Source: Ascochyta rabiei (Eukaryota > Ascomycota > Dothideomycetes > Pleosporales > Didymellaceae). Taken from it: 64,000 nt of DNA. The notes under the pieces are model-generated. The model ran no database searches. It saw nothing but the letters and a program-made list of their open reading frames with translations, and had not been told where the DNA came from. Numbering within the stretch: the stretch's first letter is position 1; the number at the start of each line of letters is the position of its first letter. The stretch covers positions 1,054,001-1,118,000 of the forward strand of contig NC_082406.1 of assembly GCF_004011695.2 (NCBI RefSeq). Reading direction: 5' to 3'. Both the position numbers and the translations under genes were made by a program. Shown piece by piece: positions 1,640-33,451 of this stretch.

Positions 1640-2628
1640 CGGTAGTATGCAAGGAGAGCTACGAAAGTCACAACTCGGCACACGCAGTTTTCTTTATGAC
1701 AACCGTCCATTTGTGTCTTTCAAGTCACCACTCAAGCATGTACTGTCAACAAGTATCTATAATCTATATCCGATGAGACATTCAGATTGAGCAGCGTTAC
1801 AGGTTGATCTGGAGTTAAACTCCTTGCCACCTTATCGCTGAGCTGTCCTCCAGGTATAATACTCAGCTATTGCAGCGACAAGGTTTCGGGCCCAAGACAT
1901 CACTCACGTCAAATGGACTACTGTCTAAGTTCACAATTCAGTGTTTGGGGACATGGTTCTTGCTACTAGAGGAACTTAAGATATCGAACTGCAGAGCAAA
2001 GAATTTCCTAGTCTCATCAGCTCATCTTCAAGCACAGGTTTGATTCGTTCATCGATTCAATCCTGGGATGGCTTATTTGCTCGCTGAGGATTTCCGCATC
2101 CAAGATCTATGGTCGCATGGGCGTACTGATTAAATGCACTCACAGGAAAGCAAGGGGCCTTGGAATGCACTCAACCCACAAGAAGCTCAATCATACAGTT
2201 AGTACCAGGTTTTCATTCTTAATGTTGTCAACAAATCAACATAAATCATAGGCCGATGTCTGTTCAGTTCTGGTAAAGGATGTAAGCATGGAAATCAACA
2301 CTTCTGTCGTTAAGTTCATAGCATATACATGGTTTCTTACCTTGTTCTCACTCCATGAATATTCAATTTTAAAAACCTTAAAACCAGTGAGTCCTTCATG
2401 TAAGCTGGAAGATTATGCCTCCACTATATCCCGCGACTGTTGGATCAGATCTTTGGAAGTTCTGTTGTACTGTGTAGCCAGAAGGATGTCCACACATGAC
2501 CCAGGCGAATCTCGGCCAGGCCACACCGCTACTATCCCAACCCCCCACTTCTGGACGTCCCTTGTAAGAGACGGCTTTGTGGAGAAGGGTACCTGTCGGA
2601 CATGCCTGTTTCAAGTCTCCAAACCTAG
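1640..2628. other. Intergenic, no gene recognised
   Basis: No coding region supported. The frame at 2288-2743 runs into the tRNA gene and has no recognisable domain. Confidence 0.5.
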
Positions 2629-2636
2629 TATATTAA
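2629..2636 (+). promoter_or_regulatory. TATA-like box upstream of the interrupted tRNA-Pro
   Basis: TATATTAA lies 34-41 bp upstream of the first tRNA nucleotide at 2670, where TFIIIB would bind if transcription starts a few bases before the tRNA. It matters because the internal A box of this gene is split by an insert, so an external element may be needed. Position is seen; function is inferred. Confidence 0.4.
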
Positions 2637-2680
2637 TAGTTAATGTGAGCCCAAATTCCATCAACAAATGGTCTTGTGGT

Positions 2681-2731
2681 GTAAGTTTCAACTCATCCCT
2701 TCACCAACAACACAACCTAACAACCAATCAG
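2681..2731 (+). other. Insert 1 in tRNA-Pro: GT-AG intron-like, between tRNA nt 11 and 12
   Basis: 51 nt. It starts GTAAGT, has CTAAC at 2717-2721 (branch A 11 nt before the end) and ends ATCAG. Size and signals match protein-gene introns in this window. It contains no run of four T, so it would not stop Pol III. It separates the first part of the A box (TGGT) from the second (CTAGTGG). Confidence 0.75.
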
Positions 2732-2745
2732 CTAGTGGTATGATT

Positions 2746-2793
2746 GTAAGTTAACCCAAATCACATTAACTGTTCATTCCTAACATTCAACAG
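2746..2793 (+). other. Insert 2 in tRNA-Pro: GT-AG intron-like, between tRNA nt 26 and 27
   Basis: 48 nt. It starts GTAAGT, has CTAAC at 2780-2784 (branch A 10 nt before the end) and ends CAACAG. It lies exactly before the 5' strand of the anticodon stem. No T4 run is present. Confidence 0.75.
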
Positions 2794-2804
2794 CTCGCTT
2801 AGGG

Positions 2805-2818
2805 TACCTAAGTAAACG
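2805..2818 (+). other. Canonical tRNA intron (14 nt, position 37/38)
   Basis: TACCTAAGTAAACG sits one base after the anticodon AGG, the standard place for eukaryotic tRNA introns removed by the tRNA-splicing endonuclease. CCTA within it can pair with the anticodon region (TAGG), as expected for such introns. Confidence 0.85.
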
Positions 2819-2855
2819 TGCGAGAGGCCCCGCGTTCGAGTCGCGGCAAGACCCA

Positions 2856-2861
2856 TTTTTT
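2856..2861 (+). terminator. Pol III T6 terminator
   Basis: Six T residues begin two bases after the discriminator C of the tRNA-Pro. This is the expected Pol III stop and suggests that the locus is, or recently was, a Pol III transcription unit. Confidence 0.75.
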
Positions 2862-3802
2862 GCCAACAGAAACATACCGAGCTTTCTCAGTCATGTCAGC
2901 CTACTTTGCGCCACTAAGCACCATCGACATACTCAGGGTCGATGAATCAAGCCTACACCGCATTGTCTGGACAAAATAGCTCTCTCTTTCTGTCGGTCAA
3001 TTTTGTGAAATTCCGGTTTGGCTTGGGTTTCGACCAAAAACTCCCTTTTACTTTACTACAACCAACGAAAAAAGCAGTAGTCAGCTGCAGTAGCCTGATA
3101 GGACGCTGATGTAATCTATAGCCAGGAAAAGGTCCTGTATTTTTGTGATTTTGTTGCCGTCTTGGTTTACGGGGGGGAAGCCTCTGTCAGCACTTGTTGC
3201 TACAGTCACATTTCCCCGTCCACAACCAGATTATTTTTTATTGGCTGCGATCAGTTTTCCCTTTTGGTCGTTGACGCTCTATTACAAGATGTTTTGTATG
3301 TCATTAAAAAATGAGTTTAGGAGCGGGCGCATTGATGTCGACCGGGATCCATACGCCAAACGATGCAACACAACAGCGTTTATCAAAGGAACCGCGGAAA
3401 GAGTCACCGAACCGTCCCCCCCCCCCCCCCCCCCCTCTCTCAGAGATTGTTCGAGAGGAACAGTTGCAGCTTTTCTTTATTAGTCGTTTTTGGCACTGAT
3501 GAGGTGCATTGAACTTTAATTGGAGTCAAGACACATAGTTGCAACAAAGATGACAAGCGCCTCAAGATGCAGAAGCATCAAAGCTTTCCTTCGTTTCTAC
3601 CTTGGAAAGCATGAGCCGCAGACACCACAGGACCGCATAGATTCTGGTATGACTGTGAACGGCATGTTCGCAAGTCTAGCGCGCCACGTGGAGTTCTGGT
3701 CAAAGCTTGTCGAGCTTCACAAAACGTCGCCGCCCCAGAGACCGCGGAGAGCAATCACCAACACTCGCACGCGATAGCATCAACTTGCACGATACCAGCA
3801 GC
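2862..3802. other. Intergenic, with a C20 homopolymer tract at 3416-3435
   Basis: No gene supported. The only notable feature is an uninterrupted run of 20 C. The rest is probably the promoter of the downstream ceramidase. Confidence 0.5.
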
Positions 3803-18366: not shown

Positions 18367-21300
18367 CTAGCCGTAGTGGGAGTTTTGCCTACTGCTGCTC
18401 CCACTCTGGCTCCCCGAGTCTGTGCCGGGCGTCTGGGGCTCCAGACTGAGCTGTGCGCGCAACGTCATGATCCATTCGTGCTGGAGCAATTCGACGGCGC
18501 TGGCGCGCTTGTTCGGGTCACGGTCGAAGCACTTCATCAGGAAGTCGATGCCCTGTTCGCTGAGTTGGTCGCGGGTGGGAAGCTGCGGCGGATCGCCTTG
18601 CGCGATGTGGTACATAATGGCCCACTCATTGTCCATGGATGCCCACGGGCGGCGACCCGTTGCCATTTCAAGAATCACGCAGCCCAGCGACCAGATGTCG
18701 ACGGCGCCATGGCGACCTGTACTGCCGCCTTTGATAACTTCTGGAGACATGTACATGGGCGTGCCGGTCATGGAGCCTTGCTTCTCGCGGCGGGTGGTGT
18801 TGTCAACGGCGAGGGTTCTGCCTTGGCGGGCGATGAGCTTGGCCGCACCAAAATCGACAAACTTGATGACACCGTTGTGATCGAGAAGGATATCTGTGAG
18901 GGTTAGTAGGATACGGGAAGACCACAGAAACAATACATACTTTCAGGCTTGATGTCGCGGTGAACGACCCTTGCGTCGTGGAGATAGGCAAGACCTTCCA
19001 ACATCTGCAGCGCATAGACCATGATGACCGTCTCGTCTTCGATGCGACCGTGCTCAAGCAAGCCAGCAAGAGAACCGCCAGAGCAGTATTCCATGAAGAT
19101 GTAAACCTTGTCTCTGTGGGGCTCGATACCGTAGTACGAGACAATGTTAGGGTGGTCCAGCACCTGCAGCACACCCATCTCATCCTTGATTTGAGCAACA
19201 ATGGTAGGGATGAGCTGAGGGTCCTGGAGACGAATCTCCTTGACAGCCATAAGGTGACCAGAATCGAGGTTCATGGCGGCGTACACAGAACCGAATGTAC
19301 CTCCACCGACGAACTGGCCCTGTTGCCATCGCAAAGTAACGTTGGTTGCCGAAGAAGACAGATAAGTGAGTGCGCGATCGGCCTCATTAGAATCTTCAAG
19401 CACCCTGCCCAGCGCCTGTCGTTCGGCTTCCTTCTCTTTCCTGAAGGTATCAATCTCTTCGAGCCTCTGCATCCACTGCATCTGCGTCATCTCGATAGAC
19501 TCTTCGTCATCTTTCGAGTTCTTCGGGTCCAACAAGCTCTTGCCTGCGATGGCGTTGAGCCGTTGCCTCTCGGCTTGTGCAGCAATGGTCGACCTCGCAC
19601 CCATGATGTCGAAATGTGATATCAATACTGACATGCACCCTGCCACCTTGGCGCGTAGCTTTGTATACTCCTCGTCGCTGATAGAGAGGATGTTCTGGCC
19701 ACGCGTCATCATCATTGCGAATTCCAGCGCTACGACAGCCCATCGGAAGGTCTTTCGATCTGAGGCTACGCAGTCATCGCAGATGAAGCTGACCCAGTCC
19801 AGAGCCAGCCTGGTCAGCTTGATGTTGTTCATGGCTCGCCGGTTGTAGTCCATATACAGCACGGAACGCTGACCAAACTCAGTGGCGAAAGCGAAACAAG
19901 TCTGGATGAGATCCTGGCAGTCTAGACCGACCGTCTGCTTCCGGACAATCTCGACGCTGTTGATGATGGTGTTTGACAGCGTGTACGCCGTCTTCTTGAT
20001 CTTCTGCAGCTCCGAGTTAACACGAGGAAGGTTGGCCCTCTGGTCGATGAGTGTGTTCAAGTACATGCCGATGGCCTGCAGGAAAGATGCGTTGGCGTTG
20101 GCAAGGCGCTGTTGAGAACCGTCGGCGACTAGTCGTAACCTCCCAGCCTTCAGATCGAGGTGCGGTTCGTGAATGTTGCCGGACATCCTCTTGCCAGACC
20201 AGTAGAGGGCGTCTTCTGGTCTGATGATCAGGACGTATGGGTTCGACGGATCTTCGGGACCTTCCTCAGCGTGGTAGCAGGTGGTGAGTAAGGATTGGAT
20301 ATCGTTGGGGCGGTTCTCCAGCGTCGGCGAGGCGATGATGTAGACGCCGGCGTTGTTGCCTCCAGTCGTCTCGACGAGAAAGTGTCCGTTGGCCATGAGG
20401 CACTCGTACAAGTCGTTGAGCTGCTCATCGTCGAGGTCAATATGGTTGATGTTGTACTCGGTGCAATTCTCGAACCTCTGCGTCAGGATCCTGGAGAAAC
20501 GGAACAGCTTACGCTGGCGGACACGGACAGAGTCGAGGATCTGCTTGTACCGCTTCTCCATCTCAGCGCCTGTGAGCTCGTCGGGCCTGCGCTGCAGCTC
20601 ACGCTCAAAGTGAGCGCTGAGGCGGGTAAGTGACTTGGAGGTAAGGATACTGAACTGCTCGGCAGTCTCGACATCGCCACCCTGGAGTTGCCTGCCGAGT
20701 CTGTTGCAAAAGTCCCACTCCTGCTCGAGGATTTCAGCTTCCTTGAAAGTGTTCTTGTTGGCAGCCAGCTTCCAGTTGAGCATCCTGAAATAGAACTTCA
20801 ACGCATCGAGGACAACACTGTCGAAGTTCTCCTCAATGCAAGGGGGAAGGTCCCAGCCTGGCTCTGGCCGCGAGATGACCAGGTAGCTCTCCTTGACCTG
20901 ACCAGCCATGCGGAGCAGGATCTGGAACTGGGCAATCATCTGCTCAGCCATCATGACGCCCTGCTGTGAGGGGTCCTTGATCTTCTTTGCGTACGACAGT
21001 CGGACACGGATAATCTCCTGCAGCAGGCGCGAGGGAAAGTTGATGAGGGTGAGCAGCTCCTCGATATAGGGTGGGAGATGGCGCTCAGCGAAGCCCTCTG
21101 CATTGGTGATCAGGGTGCTCTTGGCCTTTTGGATGACCTTCTCGAGCGGGATGAGCAGGTTGGTCTCGCCCTGCAGCGACTTGAGGCCGTCCTCCTTGAG
21201 GATGCGGTCGATGAACGAGGACTCGTCGGTGAGATGGTGGTCCTGCGAGGAGCGTGGGCGGGGCTTTGTGAAGTCGAGCTCCTCGTTGCCGACCCACATC

Positions 21301-22646
21301 TTCAGGATGGCCATCTCGGTGTTGATGAGGACGGTGGTGTTGTCCCAGGCGATGACGGCGTCACAGGCGTCGTGGTAGGCAGGCGAGGCGGCCCTGGGAT
21401 AGGCAGCCTCGAGGGCCTGGCGGGTAGGGTAGGCGCTCTCGATCTTCTCGATCTTCTTGACAACGTCCTGGACCTGCTGCTGGGGCGTCTGGCCGGCCTC
21501 GGTGGCGCCCTCGACCTCGAAGGAGATGATGGTCTCGAGCAGCGTCTTGATCTTGCCGCGGGCGTCGTCGACGATGCGGCGCTGGGCCTGCAGCGAGCGG
21601 CCGCAGACGCGGGCGCGGATGCCCATCCAGATCTCGGCCTTGAGGGTGCTGTCGCCCTGCTGCTCGGTACTGCCAATCAGGCGCTTCTTCTCCTGCTTGA
21701 CGACGTCGCCGGTGAGGACGCTGGCGAGCATGGAATGCCACTCGAGGCGCTCGCGGTTCTCGGGGATCTTGAGCTCCTCGATGGAGGGCTGCATGTCGTC
21801 GTTGCCGTAGTACAGCAGCGTCTCCTGGTCGTAGGGGTCGTTCTCGGCGTAGTCTGCGGTCGAGGGCGACTCGTCGTCGGTGCCGCTGTCGGTGCTGTAG
21901 CCCAGGCTCGGGGTGCGCATGGCCGGGTCGAAGGCGTAGCCATCCTGCTCGTCGCCCTGGGTGATGCGCTGGACGTAGGCCTTCTCCTGGGCGCGGTAGT
22001 CGGCGTTGGGGTTGGGGTTGCGGCGCGAGCGCGTGGCCGAGTTGTTGCGGCCGCGGTGCGAGGCGGTGGTGTTGAGCGAGAACTGCTGCGGACGGCGGGC
22101 GGGGTTGTAGGCGTTGGAGGGCGTGCGGACGGCGCCAGGGCGGGGGGTGCGGGCAGCAGAGGCGGCGCTGGCGTGAGGGGTGTGGGCGCTGTGCTGGGCG
22201 CTGTGCTGCTGATGGGCGCCCGGCGGCGGCAGGTCGGCCGTCATGATGCGGATGCTGCGGGTGCCCTGGGGGTTCTGGGTGCTGTAGCTGTAGGGCAGCG
22301 GAGGCAGCTCGTCGGCGCCGCTGCTCATGGGTTGCACGGGCGGCGCAAATTGATACTGGCCCTCGTCCATGGGCAGCCCGCCAAGGCTCGCGTTGCCCGC
22401 GTCGGCCTCGTGCACGTAGTCCGAGTCGAAGGAGCCGTCAGTTGAGCTCGAGCTCATGCGCTCCGGCGGCGCGGGCGCGTTGACCACGACGGGCTTGGGC
22501 GAGCTCATCTTGTCGTCGGCGGCCAGCAGCGGGTTGTTGCGAGCGACGTTGAAGTGCACCCTGGCCGGGGGCGAGGACGAGGCCATGGTGATGCGGGTGC
22601 CCTCTGCCTCTGGTTGGCTGGCCTGCTGGTTCCGCGGTCCGCGCAA
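18367..22646 (-). CDS. MAP kinase kinase kinase of the HOG pathway, Ssk2/SskB/Wis4 type
   Basis: Serine/threonine kinase that passes osmotic and oxidative stress signals from the SskA response regulator to Pbs2 and Hog1. Two exons: 22646-18941 and 18893-18367; the intron is 18940-18894 (GTATGT...CTAAC...CAG). The join restores the catalytic loop HRDIKPEN. Total 1,410 aa, normal for the family. A disordered N-terminal part (about 300 aa, rich in Ser/Pro/Ala) is followed by the large helical regulatory region of Ssk2 proteins. The C-terminal kinase domain (from about 1,108) has GQFVGGGTFGSVYAA (P-loop), AVKEI, VDFGAAK (DFG), GTPMYMSPEV and DIWSLGCVILEM. A Met 19 codons downstream (MASSSPPARVHFN) is an equally plausible start. 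Confidence 0.93.
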
Positions 22647-28509: not shown

Positions 28510-29213
28510 GATAGGCGGGCCGGTTACGACGTGCCGCGCCACAGGAGCCCTGTCGCTATGCTGGTGGGGGGAGGGTGGAGCGTTGCGTTGGCGGTGCCAT
28601 TGGCCTCTGGCGTGCTGGAAAGACGGTGTGAGTGAAAGGCGAGAGGGATACGAGTCAGCAGCGGTCAACGTACCTTGGCCCGTGGATCCTGGTCGAAGAA
28701 TGACTTCTGACGTGTGGACATGAGGACATGAGAAATGCATGCGTTGGAGCGTCTAGCGGCGAGTGGAGCTCCGGGAACGCGACACGCGACGCGACTGGCA
28801 CCCCTACGCGAACGCGAACCGAACTGCGGGCGGCGCAAGCAGAGTCACGTGCTCGGCTTTGGCCGGCGATATCGGTGTTGTTTGGATGGATGGAGAGCTA
28901 GGTAGCCGTCCGTGCATGTTAACGACTGCAGGTTGCAACGCAGTCGGCCAGGCGTTTGGACGAATACGGGGATTGCTGGGCTGCAAGGCGCCCACTCCTA
29001 CGGTCCTTGAACGGCAGACCTGGGCAAAAAGAGCCTTGTCTCCCTCACCAGCAATCTGTTGATCAACCTCGCGGACGGACGCGGGCCGTGAAGCTCGGAC
29101 GTGTTGGGATATCTTCCCCAGATCTTGTCCCACTCGCTCACTTGACCGCCAGCCGCTCCTTGCTCGCACTCCCCTCCTCCTTCTTGTCCTTTCCCTCAGC
29201 CGCCGCCAGCAAC
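28510..29213. promoter_or_regulatory. Divergent promoter shared by DNA2 and the oxodicarboxylate carrier
   Basis: 704-bp spacer between two divergent starts. It includes the ACGCGA cluster described separately and a C/T-rich stretch (29120-29200) just before the carrier start. Confidence 0.6.
28777..28817. promoter_or_regulatory. Cluster of five ACGCGA motifs upstream of DNA2
   Basis: ACGCGA occurs at 28777, 28784, 28789, 28806 and 28812, five copies in 41 bp, about 270-310 bp upstream of the DNA2 start. ACGCG is the core of the MCB element bound by MBF (Mbp1-Swi6 type), which drives G1/S genes in yeasts, and DNA2 is a replication gene. The density is seen; MBF control is inferred. Confidence 0.6.
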
Positions 29214-31619: not shown

Positions 31620-33451
31620 ATGGTGGCCGACCTCATTCGCGACTCGCCGTTCGGGCATATCGTGCGTCTTGTCACTCGCAACAAATGCTTCCAGTACCCG
31701 GAGGAAAACGATCCCAACCTCTGGAAGAAATACGTCAACCAGGAAAAGTCCGGCTACGTTGCACACCACGGCAACACATCACCACCTGAGGAGGAGGTCG
31801 AGGAACTGCAACGGGCCCGCGGAGTAAGAGAACGCGAGGGTTCAGAGAGCTCGAATACAGAAGTCGGTGACGACTATAACTATGCGAGTGGCGTGAGGAT
31901 AGACCAGGAGAAGGGCAAGGACCTGCATGTCATTGACTGGTATGGACCAGACGATCCACAGGTATGTCAGCTCTCCAAGTGCTAGCATATCATCACTGAC
32001 AGCCAGCAGAACCCGCGCAACTGGAGTCGAGGAAAGCGATTCTTTGTCACTTTTGAAATCTGTTTCCTCACCTTTTCCGTCTACATTGGTTCCGCCATCT
32101 ACACTCCCGGTCTCCAGGATGTCATGACTAGCTTCGGCGTCGCCCAGGTCCCGGCTACCTTGGGTCTGACCCTTTATGTCGCAGGATATGGACTTGGTAA
32201 GCACCTATCATACATCCACACAATGAAAGCGACTAATTCCTATGTGCAGGCCCAATCATCTGGTCTCCGTTGAGTGAAATCCCCCAAGTTGGACGGCTGT
32301 GGGTGTATATTGGAACACTGTTCATCTTCTGCTGCTTCCAGCTCCCCACTGTCTATTCAGTCAACTTTGGCATGCTCCTCGCATTCCGCTTCCTGACCGG
32401 CTTCTTCGGATCTCCCGCCTTGGCTACCGGGGGCGCCACCATCGCCGACATGTATCGACCGCAGAAGCAGGCCTACGGTCTCGCTGTCTGGGGTATTGGC
32501 GCCGTCTGCGGTCCTGTTGTGGGCCCCTTGATCGGTGGGTTTGCAGTCCAGTCTGGCGGCTCTGGCGTCCTCAAGGGCTGGAAATGGACCATCTGGGAGC
32601 TGTTGTGGTTGTCATCTTTCTGTCTTATTTTCCTGTTCTTCTTCCTGCCCGAGACCAGCTCCTCCAATATCCTGCACCGCCGCACCAAGCGCCTCCGCAA
32701 GCTTACCGGCAACGACAAGTTGACGTGCGAGTCGGACATGATATCTGCGGAGATGAAGCCCATGGATGTTGTGCAAATGTCTCTCCTCAAGCCCATCACG
32801 CTCAACTTCCAAGAGCCGATCGTCTTCCTCCTGAACTTGTACATTGCCCTCATCTACGGCCTACTGTACATCTGGTTCGAGTCGTTCCCGCTCGTCTTCA
32901 CTGGGCTGTACGGTTTCAACCTCGGTCTCGAAGGCGTCGCCTTCCTTGGCATCTTGGTCGGCACGCTGATCGCTGCCGTCATCCTCTTCACATGGCTCTA
33001 CATGTACCAGGAGAAGCAGTTTGACGAAAACGGCAACATCGCCCCAGAGAAGCGCCTGATCCCAGCCATGGTCGGGTGCTGGGGGGTCCCCATTTGCCTG
33101 TTCTGGTTCGGCTGGTCGTCTCGCGCGGACGTCCCATGGATCGTGCCGATCATCGGCACGGGCTTCTTCGGCATATCGGCCTTTACCCTCTTCAACGCCG
33201 TGCTGCCCTACCTCAGCGACGCCTATCCGGACAACGTCGCCAGCGTGCTGGCCGGCAACGACCTCATGCGTAGCGCGTTCGGCGCGGGCTTTCCCCTCTT
33301 CGCTAACGCAATGTACATGCGCCTCGGCATCGACTGGGCGAGTAGTCTGCTGGGCTTTTTGGGCATTGCGTTTATCCCGATTCCGTTCTTGTTGTACAAG
33401 TTCGGTAAACAGATCAGGCAGAAGAGCAAGAACGCTCGGAAGGACATTTGA
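31620..33451 (+). CDS. MFS multidrug transporter, DHA1 type (Flr1/CaMdr1-like)
   Basis: Plasma-membrane proton antiporter of the 12-TM DHA1 family, probably exporting toxic small molecules. Three exons: 31620-31961, 32010-32196, 32250-33451 (576 aa). The long soluble N-terminus (MVADLIRDSPFGHIVRL...) is typical of Flr1/Mdr1 relatives. The first helix follows the NPRNWS signature (NPRNWSRGKRFFVTFEICFL). Other motifs: YIGSAIYTPG, RFLTGFFGSPALATGGATIADM, then GPVVGPLIGGF (antiporter motif C), and late YPDNVASVLAGNDLMRS. The substrate is not predictable. Confidence 0.9.

Follow-up and report, generated by a model that had tools for sequence, protein, structure and literature searches.

An mRNA-type intron was reportedly described by Rogers et al. 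in 1993 in the nuclear genes for fungal 18S rRNA. That is also an mRNA-type intron in a non-coding RNA gene, but the host is an rRNA, a Pol I transcript, and not a tRNA. Fungal U6 snRNA genes, in Schizosaccharomyces pombe and others, encode a small RNA made by Pol III and contain introns of the U2 type, as the genes described below do, and in S. pombe U6 the B box is said to be located in the intron. The present case differs from fungal U6 in that the hosts are tRNAs, that at least 30 genes are involved, and that most of them also have an intron at position 37/38 for a second splicing system. The U3 snoRNA is a different RNA and, to our knowledge, has no 37/38 intron. In fungi its genes, which encode a short and structured non-coding RNA, contain normal introns of the spliceosomal kind (PMC5832005), and the same paper names U3 and U6 as the only small structured RNAs in which frequent interruption by an intron is known so far.

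For tRNAs, a 2026 review (PMC13149111) describes nuclear tRNA splicing as independent of the spliceosome. Introns outside position 37/38, sometimes several per gene, also occur in tRNAs of the red alga Cyanidioschyzon merolae, nucleomorphs and archaea (PMC3978253, PMC4090602). The nuclear tRNAs of C. merolae have up to three introns of 11–69 nt in the D, anticodon and T loops, including position 55/56 (PMC3978253). Removal in C. merolae and archaea is described as the work of the splicing endonuclease at bulge-helix-bulge (BHB) motifs, and the nucleomorph route is called unknown (PMC3978253, PMC4090602). In contrast to these ectopic introns, those reported here show BHB structures at no more than the shuffled level and have U2 signals. 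The canonical 37/38 introns, which are present in most of the same genes, differ from them in position and signals and make up a separate class in the same RNA. Spliceosomal introns in tRNAs are not described in the available text of PMC13130702 and PMC12730881, and no precedent was found in a search that covered open-licence PMC papers; a prior report may exist elsewhere. U2 introns in Pol III RNAs are already known from U6. What is new, within the literature searched, is that the hosts are tRNAs, that so many genes are affected, and that translation is implied to depend on it.

The window, by which we mean the whole 64,000-nt stretch of DNA that was analysed, contains on its forward strand a tRNA-Pro(AGG) gene (2670–2854) with two GT-AG inserts in addition to an ordinary 14-nt intron at 37/38. 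Its order is GGTCTTGTGGT, 51 nt, CTAGTGGTATGATT, 48 nt, CTCGCTTAGGG, 14 nt and TGCGAGAGGCCCCGCGTTCGAGTCGCGGCAAGACCC, followed by an A and six T. Exon 1 (nt 1–11 of the tRNA; 2670–2680), found in the sequence and by ARAGORN, is the same in all four genomic copies found. Each of these four Pro(AGG) genes also has the spliceosomal-type intron 1 (2681–2731 in the window copy, 51 nt, GTAAGT..CTAAC..CAG) at position 11/12. Exon 2 (2732–2745, 14 nt), recognized by ARAGORN after joining, is followed by the spliceosomal-type intron 2 (2746–2793, 48 nt, again GTAAGT..CTAAC..CAG) at position 26/27, which is present in two of the four genes, the other two being continuous at the exact junction. The first part of exon 3 (2794–2804) carries the anticodon AGG at 2801–2803. 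The 14-nt ordinary intron (2805–2818) has a CCTAAG complementary to the CTTAGG of the anticodon loop (6 bp), and the 3′ exon (2819–2854) provides the 3′ side of the anticodon stem, the variable loop, the T arm and the acceptor; for both of these exon parts, the sequence and ARAGORN agree.

Pol III-like elements surround and enter this gene on the same strand. A TATA-like element, TATATTAATA, lies at 2629–2638, roughly 41 to 32 nt upstream of the 5′ end of the mature tRNA. An A-box-like element, TGGTGTAAGTT, at 2677–2687 spans the border of exon 1 and intron 1, where the GTA of the 5′ splice site preserves the TRGYNNA core. The B box, CGTTCGAGTCG, at 2833–2843 is uncut within the 3′ exon, and the run of six T at 2856–2861 is a probable Pol III terminator.

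Two features of the surrounding sequence are recorded here. About 1 kb upstream of the tRNA gene, at about 1190–1650, an A-T rich stretch is flanked by an inverted repeat (ACGAAGGAGCTCGTTTTTTT / AAAAAAACGAGCTCCTTCGT) and resembles an inverted-repeat transposon that has decayed. On the other side, before the next gene-like stretch begins, a run of 20 C at 3416–3435 is followed by TCTCTC.

In the intact window no tRNA was detected by ARAGORN at default settings, and none by Rfam in the window and in 2500–3000. When long loop introns were allowed, ARAGORN misread the intact Pro gene as a tRNA-Ala. With the two inserts removed, it called a full-length tRNA-Pro(agg) with a 14-nt intron. For a chance control, any one or two U2-like segments were deleted before tRNA calling. 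This procedure gave no tRNA in any of the 334 variants obtained from 1486 pieces of 300 nt taken at random from the window. Applied to 2601–2900, it gave three calls from seven variants: the Pro(agg) at its exact coordinates, the Ala misreading, and a shifted variant with the end of intron 1 at 2735.

An earlier note on this DNA had proposed a tRNA-Pro with two spliceosomal-type introns besides the normal one. This proposal is supported, and 29 further split genes strengthen it; the sequence also agrees with the note on the coordinates of both inserts and on their GTAAGT...CTAAC...CAG form. The joined product had been called a perfect 72-nt tRNA with all stems paired. When the joined 72-mer is folded freely, its structure of minimum energy is not a cloverleaf, so that the pairing of all stems rests on the cloverleaf model. 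The inserts had been placed after nt 11 and nt 26. The first site holds (11/12), while the second is after the 25th nucleotide by plain count; it is 26/27 in standard numbering, as we applied it, because position 17 is absent.

For a wider view we surveyed the genome (40.9 Mb, 23 contigs, of which C23 carries the mitochondrial tRNA set), the one fungal genome compared. No fewer than 30 of its nuclear tRNA genes, including the Pro gene of the window, proved to be split, by 38 introns in all, alongside 91 or 92 unsplit genes, depending on which of two ways of merging duplicates was used. Searches for split genes in collections of prokaryotic and viral contigs gave none, as is to be expected of such sequences. 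The split genes were sought with B-box and terminator patterns, with joined-tRNA queries and by inspection of loci. A whole-genome search with RF00005 gave 61 matches, mitochondrial ones included, and recovered only part of the tRNAs; the B-box patterns were therefore used. Six such patterns gave 57, 6, 107, 161, 40 and 69 matches, compared with 37, 5, 8, 180, 9 and 3 for the reversed controls; for two patterns, the first 100 places among the matches listed were considered, and for all patterns the rows resembling tRNA ends were followed. A T-loop pattern gave 14 matches compared with 11 in the control, and 6 of the 14 were Arg(ACG) genes. A GTTCGAACCCCAGTCAATCCATCTGATGGATTACTGTACC-like stretch, matched by a B-box pattern at nine places on C6, C9, C14, C16, C17 and C19 with small differences, is probably a repeat and not a tRNA.

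The split genes are those for Pro(AGG) (4 genes), Pro(CGG) (2), Gln(CTG) (4), Gln(TTG) (1), Cys (2), Arg(ACG) (6), Ser(GCT) (3), Ala(CGC) (2), Leu(TAG) (1), Leu(CAG) (1), Leu(CAA) (1), Val(TAC) (1), elongator Met (1) and Asp (1). By our own reading of the exons, and in standard numbering, the introns lie at 10/11 in 5 genes, 11/12 in 9, 15/16 in 6, 19/20 in 1, 26/27 in 2, 27/28 in 2, the variable arm in 1, 53/54 in 1 and 55/56 in 6. The introns of the two Pro(CGG) genes are at 34/35, inside the anticodon, and the three introns of the Asp gene are at 9/10, 30/31 and 49/50. Removal of the 38 GT-AG segments resulted in a full-length ARAGORN tRNA for 30 of 30 genes. The ARAGORN anticodon was identical to our assignment by hand in 24 of them; in the other six (both Cys, Val, Met and two Arg), the loop was shifted and the anticodon was assigned manually. 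Before joining, there was a full-length call in 6 of the 30, each with a different anticodon; the call for SerGCT_C18 was shifted.

For several tRNAs, every gene found was split: Pro (6 of 6), Gln (5 of 5), Cys (2 of 2) and Arg(ACG) (6 of 6). Joined-sequence queries of the whole genome, which can miss short pieces, revealed no unsplit copy for Gln, Cys, Val(TAC), Ala(CGC), Pro(CGG) or Arg(ACG). The earlier note had named other intact Pro(AGG) genes covering the need as a point that would speak against function. None was found: the joined 72-mer query matched four places, none of them at full length. These queries are not exhaustive for short pieces, since they missed a known Leu(CAA) gene and the second Pro(CGG) gene (ProCGG_C5). 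A query with six approximate tRNA sequences found only three Phe loci, all unsplit, and Pro(TGG) was sought in this way alone. The census is incomplete, as no tRNA-His(GTG) was found in the whole genome with the patterns and queries used; its gene may be split inside the B box like those for Arg(ACG), or may simply have been missed.

Unsplit copies exist for Leu(CAG), Met and Asp. Ser(GCT) loci looked continuous in the joined-sequence query because the final bases of the intron resemble exon 1, and on sequence reading all three are split at 10/11. At SerGCT_C18, where the intron end happens to resemble exon 1, BLAST and ARAGORN can read a continuous gene. Two Asp loci were unusual. The split gene at C17:539222–539638 has three GT-AG introns, the second of which (96 nt) holds tandem CACGCCAGT repeats, and its exons have diverged from those of the other Asp genes. 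An Asp-like tRNA gene at C11:1337260–1337710 has an insertion or partial duplication in the T arm (GGGGTTAGATTGTTCGACTCCCC).

Comparisons between paralogues, in which the exon figures include the 37/38 intron, separated the exons from the introns. For Pro(AGG), 0 of 516 exon sites differed versus 78 of 309 in intron 1. The corresponding figures were 3 of 510 versus 71 of 311 for Gln(CTG), 4 of 88 versus 13 of 51 for Cys(GCA), and 7 of 84 versus 15 of 50 for Ala(CGC). For Arg(ACG), they were 53 of 1240, all located in the 37/38 intron by inspection, versus 234 of 813. In these five families, the exons are thus nearly identical and the introns differ at 23–30% of sites, with the GT and AG ends kept. 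The contrast was weaker for Ser(GCT) (18 of 270, with 36 gap sites, versus 24 of 162) and Pro(CGG) (18 of 101 versus 23 of 52).

Pairs with and without an intron agreed at the junctions. The joined sequence of the split Leu(CAG) gene recurs without any change in the paralogue that has no such intron, and the split and unsplit Met genes have a single difference, which is located in the 37/38 intron. One Ala(CGC) copy has the 15/16 intron and one lacks it, and the two agree at the predicted junction. The U6 snRNA of the same genome provides a parallel: an intronless gene (C14:905425–905524), with a B box just beyond its terminator, and a gene with two GT-AG introns of 66 and 53 nt (C9:1076009–1076174) are identical after joining.

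These comparisons bear on the possibility that the split genes are non-functional relics with decayed or inserted sequence, other genes meeting the need. The three-intron Asp gene would fit such a history, as its exons have diverged and at least six unsplit Asp genes exist. As a general explanation it is extremely improbable, because the searches made turned up no unsplit gene for Pro, Gln or Cys, nor any for Arg(ACG), because exons are far more alike than introns in five families, and because all 30 genes yield full tRNAs when joined. The earlier note had kept a relic as its fallback for the Pro gene; against this stand the presence of intron 1 in all four Pro(AGG) genes found and the identity of their 86-nt spliced sequences. 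Its alternative of a very recent double gain is not supported either: intron 1 is shared by four copies with the differences given above, and intron 2, shared by two copies, differs at 15 of 48 sites.

The introns resemble U2-type introns at both ends. All 38 begin with GT, the hexamers being GTAAGT (19), GTACGT (6), GTAAGC (5), GTTAGT (2), GTAGGC (2), GTACGC (2), GTATGT (1) and GTAAGA (1), and 37 end with YAG and one with AAG. In 31 of the 38, a branch-like word, mostly CTAAC, is found 10–12 nt from the intron end; in the other seven, the last match of our script was elsewhere or absent. A U2-type intron is expected to have a GTRNGT-like 5′ splice site, a branch site and a YAG end, and the tRNA introns have these. 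Their length is 48–59 nt in 36 of 38, the remaining two being 68 and 96 nt. Group I and group II self-splicing introns were considered and rejected: their catalytic core needs some hundred nucleotides, the inserts have 48–96 nt, and there was no Rfam ribozyme match in the window, the scan of 2500–3000 giving only one chance snoRNA row.

Two mRNA introns of the window, placed by the best protein match, could be used for comparison. One, in an SSK2 gene, is 47 nt long (18894–18940, GTATGT..CTAAC..CAG). The other, in Dna2, is 59 nt long (28615–28673, GTACGT..CAG) with no CTAAC near its end, and a shifted alternative scored almost equally. The earlier note had claimed that the inserts match the mRNA introns of this genome in length and signals. 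In this sample of two, lengths and ends are similar to those of the tRNA introns and CTAAC is near the end in one, so that the match is tentative. The SSK2-like protein (18903–22646) is 97% identical to that of Ascochyta clinopodiicola and 90–93% identical to proteins of Macroventuria, Didymella, Boeremia and Stagonosporopsis, and the open reading frame at 32270–33451 is 95% identical to proteins of A. lentis and A. clinopodiicola. The fungus is therefore taken to belong to the Didymellaceae, the family of these genera, and probably to Ascochyta or a close relative. Similarity between introns of different tRNA families was near the shuffled level (mean 0.12 versus 0.10), with 1 of 669 pairs above the 99.9th percentile, which gives no indication that copies of one intron have spread among the genes.

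Position and length alone would also fit ectopic tRNA introns cut out by the tRNA endonuclease at BHB motifs as in C. merolae and archaea, since the C. merolae nuclear tRNA introns match those found here in site and length (PMC3978253). A loosely scored helix was seen in 4 of 38 introns (8.4% in shuffled sequences), and a test over seven registers did not separate the two classes (loose, 21 of 38 versus 31 of 56 canonical introns; strict, 13 of 38 versus 20 of 56). In the annotated register, however, a strict central helix was found in 0 of 38. With bulges of 1–3 nt allowed, 6 of 38 scored versus 14% in shuffled sequences, whereas the canonical 37/38 introns scored in 16 of 36 versus 13% in shuffled sequences. 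Conservation of the GT and YAG ends and of the branch word, although the rest of the intron diverges, argues further against removal by the endonuclease. We regard this explanation as highly unlikely.

The polymerase was considered next to the splicing machine. Of the 30 split genes, 27 have a TATA-like word at −65 to −25, compared with 1 of 27 for a control stretch; among the unsplit genes it is 63 of 90, compared with 6 of 89 for the control. No more than 40 nt beyond the 3′ end, a run of at least four T follows all 30 split genes and 86 of 92 unsplit ones, and the DNA of all 30 split genes had a GTTCRANYC B-box word. The split genes therefore have the layout of B box, upstream TATA and T run that the unsplit genes have. 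They are not type 2 genes in the strict sense of an uninterrupted A box, an intron lying inside nt 8–18 in 21 of 30, and they may work like type 2 genes all the same. The Pol III T run was often followed by GC: 22 of 30 split genes and 58 of 92 unsplit ones have TTTTTGC in the first 40 nt of the 3′ flank, counts that are biased because some genes were found by the TTTTTGC pattern.

The TRGYNNA core of the A box is retained in the DNA of 22 of 30 split genes; those without it are both Cys, two Leu, three Ser and the Asp gene, and the two Cys genes lack it even when spliced. How it is retained depends on the intron position. Introns at 11/12 place GTA where the A box needs NNA, so the core survives, with TGGTCTAGTGG becoming TGGTGTAAGTT in the DNA, and introns at 15/16 leave nt 8–14 whole. 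Introns at 10/11 or 9/10 (LeuTAG, LeuCAG, SerGCT ×3 and Asp) lose the core in the DNA of these six genes, so the argument from the A box is partial.

For the B box, the Leu(CAA) intron at 53/54 ends with AAG, so that GTTCGAATC is still legible across the junction. The B box of the Arg(ACG) genes is interrupted at GTT|CGA (55/56) in all six, and each of the six introns itself contains GTTCRANTCC joined to the branch site. Within this element, 8 of 10 columns are invariant versus 4 of 31 other non-signal columns (Fisher p 0.0002), and the two variable columns are degenerate positions of B boxes. Three of the four other invariant columns are a CCA just before GTTCRANTCC, resembling the CCAGGTT of the true T arm. 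The intronic element may have descended from a duplicated T arm, though this is a guess. At one Arg(ACG) locus, a degenerate second T-arm/acceptor piece resembling the 3′ end of Arg(ACG) lies about 110 nt downstream of the gene and is followed by TTTTTG.

These elements can be set against transcription by Pol II, in which an mRNA-like or long non-coding RNA would be spliced and the tRNA excised later. Spliceosomal introns normally leave Pol II transcripts, and the interruption of the A box in 21 of the 30 genes could be understood in the same way. The T runs in every split gene, the TATA-like words in 27 of 30 and the layout shared with the unsplit genes argue against it, as does the replacement B box kept in six Arg(ACG) introns, for which Pol II would have no need. 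We consider transcription by Pol II very improbable.

What can be read directly in the DNA is the exon/intron anatomy, the splice signals, the paralogue pairs with and without an intron, the contrast between exons and introns, the lack of unsplit genes for several tRNAs within the searches made, and the Pol III-like signals, with the substitute B box of the six Arg(ACG) introns among them. They are best explained, with a probability that we judge to be very high, if Pol III pre-tRNAs are spliced by the spliceosome and then, where a 37/38 intron is present, by the tRNA endonuclease. Pol III, acting through TFIIIC and TFIIIB, would make a long precursor from which the spliceosome would remove the GT-AG introns as lariats. 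This step would precede tRNA folding and trimming by RNase P and RNase Z, and the tRNA endonuclease would remove the ordinary 37/38 intron, where one exists, as the last step. Introns would be retained by selection at sites that leave a B box in the DNA, be it in an exon, across a junction or inside an intron, together with an A-box core in 22 of 30 genes. Exon 1 has only 9–19 nt in 22 of 30 split genes and inner exons can be as short as 11 nt. As Pol III transcripts are uncapped, recognition of such RNAs by the spliceosome is not a given.

Genes of this kind may escape detection. To find non-canonical introns, tRNAscan-SE 2.0 applies BHB models to the candidates that its archaeal search has produced (PMC8450103). 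For this reason, our results suggest that related fungal genomes may appear short of tRNAs for Pro, Gln and Cys. The genes also make intron gain and loss visible in RNAs without a reading frame, in paralogue pairs that differ by one exact intron, and, in the Arg(ACG) B box, they offer a promoter element moved into an intron.

If these introns are spliced as proposed, 30 of the 122 nuclear tRNA genes in hand break the rule that tRNA splicing is independent of the spliceosome. The Pro, Gln, Cys and Arg(ACG) genes found would all be unreadable without U2 splicing, the 5′ splice site would serve as part of the A box, and the Arg(ACG) introns would carry a B box of their own, newly formed next to the branch site and joined to it. 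We think it highly probable, judging from the genome sequence, that translation depends directly on the spliceosome, that many tRNAs need two unrelated splicing machines in sequence, and that intron sequence has supplied the parts for a rebuilt Pol III promoter. In this fungus, the making of tRNAs for proline, glutamine and cysteine would likely depend on the machine that splices mRNA, and translation would thus be tied to mRNA splicing.
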